Source of the DNA: Lysobacteraceae bacterium
GTDB taxonomy: Bacteria > Pseudomonadota > Gammaproteobacteria > Xanthomonadales > Xanthomonadaceae
Direction: 5' to 3'
Assembly: GCA_030681035.1 (NCBI GenBank)
Contig: JAUXUI010000061.1
Location: 1 to 64,000, forward strand
Length of the DNA stretch: 64,000 nt
The position numbers and the translations under genes are program-made. The notes under the pieces are model-generated. The model was given only the letters and a program-made list of their open reading frames with translations. It did not search any database and was not told where the DNA came from. Below, in pieces: positions 13,769 to 15,100 of this stretch (position 1 is its first letter; each line of letters opens with the position of its first letter).

Positions 13769-14329
13769 TCATACCCAGTTCAACGCGATCACCAGTGCCA
13801 GCGACGCAAACACGGCGGCGGCGACATAACGCGCCAGATGCAGCGGCAGGCGCTTGGCGAAGCGCGCACCCAGATACACCACCGGCACGTTGGCCAGCAG
13901 CATGCCGATGGTGGTGCCCATCACCACTTGCCACAGCGGCGTCCAGCTCGCCGCCAGCACCACGGTGGCAATCTGGGTTTTGTCACCCATCTCGGCCAGA
14001 AAGAACGCGATAACGGTGGCGATGAACGCACTGCGTCCGTCGGTTTTGGCGTCATCGTCATCGAGCGTGTCAGGGATCAAGGCCCAGATCGCGACCGCCA
14101 CGAATGAGCCGACTACCAGCCAGCGCAGAGTTTGCGGCGAAAACCACTGCGCCACCCACGCACCCAAGCCCGCTGCAGCGGCGTGGTTGAGCACGGTGGC
14201 GACGAAAATCCCCGCGATAATCGGAACCGGTCGGCGAAAGCGCGCGGCCAGCAGCAGCGCGAGCAGTTGGGTTTTATCGCCGATCTCGGCAATCGCCACC
14301 GCCAGGGTAGATACGTACAGTGCTTGCAA
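13769..14329 (-). CDS. TMEM165/GDT1 (UPF0016) family cation transporter
   Basis: A 186-residue, six-helix inner-membrane protein made of two inverted halves. Both family motifs E-x-G-D-K-T are present: AEIGDKTQLLAL near residue 15 and AEMGDKTQIATV near residue 115. Members export Mn(2+) (MneA/MntX) or exchange Ca/Mn for protons. The start is TTG at 14329 with GAGG 6 bases upstream on the minus strand. I looked for a manganese riboswitch upstream and could not recognise one. Substrate is inferred from the family. Confidence 0.9.
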   Translation of the reverse strand: MQALYVSTLAVAIAEIGDKTQLLALLLAARFRRPVPIIAGIFVATVLNHAAAAGLGAWVAQWFSPQTLRWLVVGSFVAVAIWALIPDTLDDDDAKTDGRSAFIATVIAFFLAEMGDKTQIATVVLAASWTPLWQVVMGTTIGMLLANVPVVYLGARFAKRLPLHLARYVAAAVFASLALVIALNWV

Positions 14330-14479
14330 GGCGGGCCTCGACTCTAGTTTGACGAACCGTCAGCTTAGCGTAACGTTGCGCTTTCGCGTTGGTGGATGAT
14401 GGAGATTGCAGCGATGATGCCGTGGTGTGTCGTCCTGGTTGGTGGCCTGATCGCATTGCGTGCGAATGGCAGCGCCTGA

Positions 14480-15100
14480 ATGGCCAGCGACCTGCACGAC
14501 GTGCGGCTGGATACTGTCGTGCAGACACTGCTCGATAGTGGTACACGCCGCGTGCTTGATCTGGGCTGTGGCCCTGGCGAATTGTTGCTGCGGCTGGCCC
14601 GCGAAGCGCAGTTTGTCGAGATTGTCGGTATCGATATCGACGCGGAGGCGTTGCACGAGGCGCGTCGGGTGCTGGGCCTTGGCTTGCCGTTTCCCGGTGA
14701 TCGCATCCAGGTGCGTCATGGTTCCTTTGCTGCGGCGGATGCCGCGCTGGCCGGGTTTGACGCCGCCGCGCTGGTGGAAACCATCGAGCACCTCGATCCG
14801 CGCTTGCTCGGGCGGATGGAAACGGCCGTGTTTGCCGGCATGCGCCCGGGCGTGGTGTTGGTGACCACGCCCAATCAGGAATACAACGTGGTGCATGGCA
14901 TGGCGCCGGGTGAGCGCCGTCATCCGGGGCATCGTTTTGAATGGAACCGTGCGCGCTTTCGGCAGTGGGCGCAGGGTGTGGCCGGGCGCAATGGCTATGC
15001 CGTGCAGTATTCCGACATCGGCCCGCTGCATCCGCAGCACGGCAGTTCGACCCAGATGGCGCAATTCAGCCGCGCGATGGCTATGCCGTTATCGCGCTGA
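14480..15100 (+). CDS. Stand-alone Hen1-like RNA 3'-terminal 2'-O-methyltransferase domain
   Basis: A 206-residue SAM-dependent methyltransferase. Motif I is LDLGCGPGELLLRLA and the acidic SAM-binding residue is in VGIDIDAEA. What separates it from generic methyltransferases is the Hen1 metal site: ExxEH at residues 100-104 (VETIEHLD), then VTTPNQEYNVV, and a second His in RHPGHRFEWNR (H151). In known bacterial Hen1 these four residues bind Mn and methylate the 3'-terminal ribose during RNA repair with Pnkp. Here the usual N-terminal ligase-activating domain is missing and no Pnkp gene is near. It overlaps the 3' end of the fructokinase gene by 12 bp, tail to tail. Activity on RNA is inferred. 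Confidence 0.8.
   Translation: MASDLHDVRLDTVVQTLLDSGTRRVLDLGCGPGELLLRLAREAQFVEIVGIDIDAEALHEARRVLGLGLPFPGDRIQVRHGSFAAADAALAGFDAAALVETIEHLDPRLLGRMETAVFAGMRPGVVLVTTPNQEYNVVHGMAPGERRHPGHRFEWNRARFRQWAQGVAGRNGYAVQYSDIGPLHPQHGSSTQMAQFSRAMAMPLSR

Follow-up and report, generated by a model that had tools for sequence, protein, structure and literature searches.

What a bacterial Hen1 methyltransferase might do when neither its ligase-activating domain nor its partner Pnkp is at hand is the question raised by a gene from a Lysobacteraceae bacterium (GenBank assembly GCA_030681035.1, contig JAUXUI010000061.1, positions 1 to 64,000; this whole stretch of 64,000 nucleotides is referred to here as the window). 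The gene (14480..15100, plus strand, stop codon included) is an open reading frame (ORF) with an ATG start and encodes a Hen1 catalytic domain of 206 residues. Bacterial Pnkp and Hen1 genes have been described as always lying in the same operon, and the N-terminal domain of Hen1 as the part that activates the ligase (PMC4411300). We propose that the window protein and those relatives that likewise consist of the catalytic half only, referred to as solo Hen1, are probably free-standing metal- and S-adenosylmethionine (SAM)-dependent RNA 3'-terminal 2'-O-methyltransferases that function without Pnkp and constitute a distinct branch of Hen1.

It is confirmed that the window ORF encodes a complete Hen1 methyltransferase domain of 206 residues. 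The protein matches TIGR04074, the model for bacterial Hen1, at 2.2e-61 and 207.7 bits over profile positions 265-461 of 462, i.e. over the catalytic half only, and the presence of this half without the N-terminal domain is far beyond chance. An in-frame TGA (14477..14479, plus strand) stands immediately 5' of the ATG, and in comparison with three close orthologues conservation starts at that ATG while the DNA upstream diverges; the start is therefore sound and an N-terminal domain in frame is ruled out. A profile of the N-terminal ligase-activating domain, built from 21 full-length rows, also found no match at the window locus, and the original prediction, in which a Hen1-like catalytic domain stood without its N-terminal domain, is thereby borne out. 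The SAM-binding motif DLGCGPG occupies residues 27-33 (14558..14578, plus strand), with G29, C30, G31 and G33 invariant in an alignment of 44 rows. A small in-frame ORF upstream of the gene was considered as a leader peptide and rejected, the upstream DNA being poorly conserved, and a promoter and terminator scan around the gene gave nothing exceeding shuffles.

Known structures place the protein in the same family. The best PDB sequence matches (phmmer) are Hen1 structures (3jwj, 2.3e-43; 3jwh, 2.5e-43; then 3jwg and 3jwi), and the eukaryotic matches include the human HENMT1 domain (5wy0, 5.5e-25) and plant HEN1 (3htx, 1.1e-17). The structure prediction suggested at the outset was carried out with AlphaFold2 on 44 rows (predicted local distance difference test score 93.5; predicted template modelling score 0.90), and in a Foldseek search with this model ranks 1-11 were all Hen1 (E-values 4e-24 to 5e-17), the best non-Hen1 protein reaching 1.9e-11. 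With 3jwg-3jwj the catalytic domain has in common its fold, its metal ligands and its SAM motif, at 38-40% identity in the fold matches. The metal ligands named in the original prediction lie in ETIEH (residues 100-104; 14777..14791, plus strand), which by homology to HEN1/HENMT1 (PMC10781085) would supply E100, E103 and H104, and in HRFEW (residues 151-155; 14930..14944, plus strand), a conserved motif that begins with the fourth ligand, H151. All four are invariant in 91/91 rows, made up of 21 full-length rows and 70 rows from outside the full-length list; the latter include L085, later shown to carry the N-terminal domain, L067, which is cut by a contig end, and three rows that duplicate others exactly or nearly so (L005, L006 and L007). 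By motif, these residues would correspond to Glu796, Glu799, His800 and His860 in the plant enzyme HEN1, where they are reported to coordinate a metal in contact with both terminal hydroxyls of the RNA, 2' and 3' (PMC10781085). Also common to solo and full-length Hen1 in the alignment are TTPN, part of the conserved Hen1 motif TTPNQEYN (residues 129-136; 14864..14887, plus strand), HxFEW, R9, R147 and R157. Inside the ExxEH motif, residue 101 separates the groups, being V in 21/21 full-length rows and T in 64/70 of the others, and in this most of the latter differ from 3jwg-3jwj.

The absence of a Pnkp partner, the other part of the original prediction, was examined in the window genome (99.8% complete, 144 contigs) by the pnkp search that had been set as a check. 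The best match to the Pnkp model TIGR04075 in that genome reached 25.8 bits, in the phosphatase region, against a cut-off of 750, and PNKP_ligase had no match there at 0.001. The window gene differs from the Pnkp-Hen1 cassette (TIGR04074), then, both in its missing N-terminal domain and in that no Pnkp was found in its operon or genome. Other genomes give the same picture. TIGR04075 scored above its cut-off in 0/41 solo genomes and in 8/8 full-length genomes (49 searched, L058 left out), and PNKP_ligase was found in none of 55 solo genomes (two of them probably double-counted, as G002/G004 and G003/G005 carry identical hen1) and in all 14 full-length genomes. At the loci themselves, Pnkp-like DNA was present in 25 of the 29 that are full-length and in none of the 85 others. 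Weaker Pnkp matches in 38 of the 41 solo genomes are all confined to positions 1-432 of the 851 in the model and do not reach the ligase part; the strongest has 85.2 bits, in a 371-aa frame. In seven solo genomes (G026, G027, G028, G029, G030, G034 and G038) separate frames of 325-418 aa match the Pnkp phosphatase region at 60-85 bits, above the level in the remaining solo genomes, and these could be stand-alone phosphatases. We also observed loci (L091, L092 and L100, as well as L085 on a short contig) with a full-length Hen1 gene, N-terminal domain included, where the DNA retrieved around the gene held nothing Pnkp-like, a result that covers the locus only.

A Hen1 without Pnkp might serve a different RNA ligase or repair system in trans, one encoded elsewhere such as RtcB, an Rnl2-like ligase or Pnkp1-Rnl, and there is a precedent in that the hen1 gene of the Pnkp1-Rnl-Hen1 system (PDB 4xrp) is also reported to lie far from its partner genes (PMC4411300). 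We nevertheless regard this as unlikely. RtcB does occur in some solo genomes, 10/42, but this compares with 14/38 background genomes (drawn from those of the class sample that had no Hen1 match), and it was not found in the window genome; PF09414, the Rnl2-like RNA ligase, occurs in 3/42 solo against 1/38 background genomes. Neither PF09414 nor PNKP_ligase was found in the window genome (G000), although Rnl, with a reported identity of about 20% to the Pnkp ligase (PMC4411300), might escape both. Comparisons of solo with background genomes are rough, because many solo genomes belong to other groups, and the ligase searches in solo genomes did not take in T4-type Pnkp1 or PF09511. Unlike the window protein, moreover, the Hen1 of Pnkp1-Rnl-Hen1 has its own N-terminal domain and is described as working with Rnl and Pnkp1 (PMC4411300), whereas the ligase-contacting N-terminal domain is present in 0/85 non-full-length loci; 4xrp itself is distant from the window protein in sequence and takes Foldseek rank 15.

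The eukaryotic relatives offer another precedent, since animal HENMT1 and plant HEN1 have the same ligands and are reported to work without Pnkp (PMC10781085). They differ in methylating small RNAs and in having extra regions, and share 28-32% identity with the window protein in the fold matches. A prokaryotic Argonaute might have its guide or small RNAs matured by solo Hen1, in parallel with the role of HENMT1 towards piRNAs, yet this is very improbable here: the Piwi model PF02171 matched 0/80 genomes, 42 with solo hen1 and the window genome included, although divergent short Argonautes could escape this model, which in a control was positive in 1/14 genomes (M. jannaschii). A link of solo hen1 to RtcB, an Rnl2-like ligase or Piwi was accordingly rejected for want of enrichment.

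Is the window gene an isolated case? Relatives were collected by scanning genome contigs with short peptides of the window protein, a procedure biased towards its near kin, and the best 80 of 138 confirmed relatives were kept. The N-terminal domain profile matches 21 of these 80 and none of the other 59; over all loci it matches 29/29 that are full-length (two of which are the same place) and 0/85 others, the window among them, which become 71 once repeats are removed. In a tree of 90 rows built by a quick method (66 solo, 21 full-length and three edge cases set aside), one branch with a support of 99 (Shimodaira-Hasegawa-like approximate likelihood ratio test) separates every one of the 66 solo rows from the 21 full-length ones, with edge row L085 on the full-length side and L067 and L090 on the solo side. 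Three solo rows are labelled Acidobacteriota, Thermodesulfobacteriota and Myxococcota, and the named remainder in the tree are Pseudomonadota. As the root is a midpoint root only, the split is compatible with loss of the N-terminal domain or with an ancestral short form. Judged from these sequences, solo Hen1 is a separate branch, mostly within Pseudomonadota but spread across several classes, and not an isolated oddity. Nor is it rare beside the classical form: among 369 genomes of the window's class, eight match at 1e-25 or better, seven (including the window's) with the catalytic half only and one full-length, and among 398 genomes of the phylum Pseudomonadota 11 match, five with the catalytic half only (the window's, three of one genus and one more) and six full-length, which amounts to three against six genera with the window's own counted. 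Within the window's genus solo hen1 is present in 4/4 sampled genomes, its own included, and six other genomes of the family in the class and phylum samples had no Hen1 match at 1e-25.

Comparison of the window gene with its orthologues in the genus gave proportions of nonsynonymous differences (pN) of 0.087-0.115 and of synonymous differences (pS) of 0.299-0.398, i.e. a pN/pS of about 0.23-0.31; the gene is under purifying selection. This bears directly on the possibility that solo hen1 is the drifting remnant of a decayed Pnkp-Hen1 cassette from which pnkp and the N-terminal domain have been lost, as the bare catalytic half and the genome in which no pnkp was found might suggest. Because of that selection the idea is largely refuted, and the ligands invariant in 70/70 rows, the single supported branch across several classes and the presence of the gene throughout the sampled genus also speak against it, leaving it hardly credible.

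Solo hen1 is also found on plasmids. At 1e-15, 19 of 72,556 plasmid records match, two of which were looked at in detail, and the best match is a solo form from Comamonas. That gene is annotated only as 'methyltransferase domain-containing protein', and 14 of the other 18 plasmid matches carry a Hen1 name. There was no match at 1e-10 among 50,697 phage records, and a phage origin of solo hen1 was rejected on this ground; a homologue of Hen1 is reported next to PNKP in the Xanthomonas jumbo phage XacN1 (PMC5852040), so a search at 1e-10 misses distant phage Hen1.

The likely course of the reaction is that E100, E103, H104 and H151 hold Mn2+ or Mg2+, that this metal would bind the 2'- and 3'-OH of a free RNA 3' end, and that the 2'-OH of this last ribose would then be methylated by SAM. 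Catalysis of this kind, with RNA 3' ends as substrate, is what we infer with considerable confidence. An end so capped should resist 3'-5' exonucleases, tailing or ligation, and, given that no ligase-activating N-terminal domain is present, the reaction would yield RNA whose 3' end is protected, not a repaired junction. For bacterial Hen1, binding is reported to be the same for RNAs of 12-24 nt and to show no sequence specificity except a preference for a 3' G (PMC10781085). As to which RNAs might be modified, the original prediction, otherwise supported, suggested the 3' ends of tRNA or small RNA, which is conjecture; we think a general role on tRNA unlikely. Methylation of the 2'-OH of A76 in mature tRNA is expected to block class I aminoacylation, and this is the reason for that view.

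Several observations weigh against an active, RNA-directed solo Hen1. The match of 207.7 bits lies below the TIGR04074 equivalog cut-off of 340 bits, a further difference from the classical cassette. Residue 150, immediately before the fourth ligand, is D in 21/21 full-length rows and G in 55/70 others including the window protein, which again sets most of these others apart from 3jwg-3jwj; the matching Asp859 of plant HEN1 has been proposed to aid deprotonation (PMC10781085), and catalysis may therefore differ in detail. The human HENMT1 domain alone is reported to be inactive without a short N-terminal FKPP motif (PMC10781085), and the surroundings of the window gene, described below, provide no clue to a partner or a substrate. 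The change beside the fourth ligand would also suit a small-molecule methyltransferase of UbiG type that has retained a Hen1-like pocket, an idea that gains from the report that UbiG-type small-molecule enzymes are the nearest kin of HEN1 (PMC1397878). We consider it quite unlikely, however, as the ligands and the further motif and arginine positions are common with full-length Hen1, the UbiG model scores 27.7 bits against 207.7 for Hen1, and the Foldseek ranking favours Hen1.

The window gene stands alone, with a divergent gene for a GDT1 divalent cation/proton antiporter upstream (13769-14329, minus strand) and a convergent ROK kinase gene downstream. A nucleoside transporter, an alpha-amylase-family enzyme and a TonB receptor are also encoded in its flanks, so that the setting among sugar and transport genes was correctly described in the original prediction. 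A preference for Mn2+ has been reported for some Hen1 enzymes (PMC10781085), but the antiporter beside an enzyme of this type is probably a coincidence of position.

Other solo loci offer more. Genes within 7 kb were compared for 71 solo loci, which single linkage of Hen1 at 65% groups into 20 clusters, the counts resting on a later gene caller, with which some antisense shadow ORFs remain, on tblastn and on shadow-filtered clustering. In varied order, a SulP anion transporter, a universal stress protein (Usp) and a DksA/TraR-like protein recur in five clusters each, the RNA polymerase recycling motor HelD in four, a protein with a Methyltransf_23 domain and a zinc ribbon (the latter read by eye) in five, and a protein weakly similar to polyamine aminopropyltransferases in four. 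Common families recur too, among them ABC transporter proteins (seven clusters), a PAS-type protein named by eye (four) and others (three). At least one of six named families is found at 22/71 solo loci and none at 49, the window among the latter. Only one of the 29 full-length loci, which come from other groups, matched any of 15 neighbour queries in tblastn (HelD, 4e-7).

In 8/9 loci the zinc-ribbon methyltransferase gene precedes solo hen1 by 0.6-0.8 kb on the same strand. At three loci (L060 2840-3526, L070 6559-7248 and L087 7279-8004), where as at some others it is the gene immediately upstream, the two overlap by four bases. It is found in 13/42 solo and 4/38 background genomes, and was not found in the window genome; in Rhodobacteraceae-type genomes it is a possible functional partner of solo hen1. 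Some five to eight further zinc-ribbon genes, from solo or background genomes, had little of the stress-gene set around them. HelD occurs in 3/42 solo and 0/38 background genomes, and it too was not found in the window genome; at four loci of Pseudomonadota (L053, L070, L127 and L129) a Bacillus-type HelD is no more than about 2.5 kb away from solo hen1, and NF041464 scored above its cut-off in both HelD proteins scanned.

The neighbours can also be found without hen1. In one Rhodoferax genome a stretch of 15.8 kb carries RF3, the DksA/TraR-like protein, HelD, SulP, Usp and the zinc-ribbon protein without hen1, the hen1 copy being on a different contig, and the stress-gene set thus also exists apart from hen1. 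Similar sets of SulP, Usp, DksA/TraR-like, RF3 and cfa genes were seen on the Comamonas plasmid (L109; NZ_CP101744.1 11995-30603), together with solo hen1 and with an integrase and an IS3 transposase nearby, and at L131 (G010:C25:62001-77804), where cfa is partial and HelD and the zinc-ribbon methyltransferase are present. PADLOC returned only generic methyltransferase and helicase matches for seven proteins. We read these arrangements as a recombining set of stress genes with which solo hen1 sometimes travels, without proof of a complex, and the neighbours at the 22 loci as hints of a stress role. A function in protecting or marking RNA 3' ends, perhaps under stress, is a tentative guess at the physiological role. 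More speculative still, and in our own estimate doubtful, is the fuller scheme in which solo Hen1 would cap RNA 3' ends outside ligation and travel in several lineages with a shuffled, partly mobile stress set (SulP/Usp, DksA/TraR-like, HelD, RF3 and the zinc-ribbon methyltransferase), stabilising or marking ends that arise when transcription and translation are stalled.

In 2006 bacterial Hen1 was listed only in Firmicutes, Cyanobacteria and Actinobacteria (PMC1397878), and the literature searched yielded no description of a solo proteobacterial Hen1, although key papers on Hen1 and RNA repair outside that search may contain one. Automated annotation can miss the gene, the one annotated solo example examined, on the plasmid, lacking the Hen1 name. 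A whole branch of Hen1 for which no Pnkp was found contrasts with the described rule of a shared operon. If these enzymes are active, some bacteria would use ribose methylation to cap the 3' ends of RNA, and for a purpose that is not ligation; such capping, if real, would be comparable to the protection of small RNAs in eukaryotes and, as far as we have found, the first system of its kind in bacteria.
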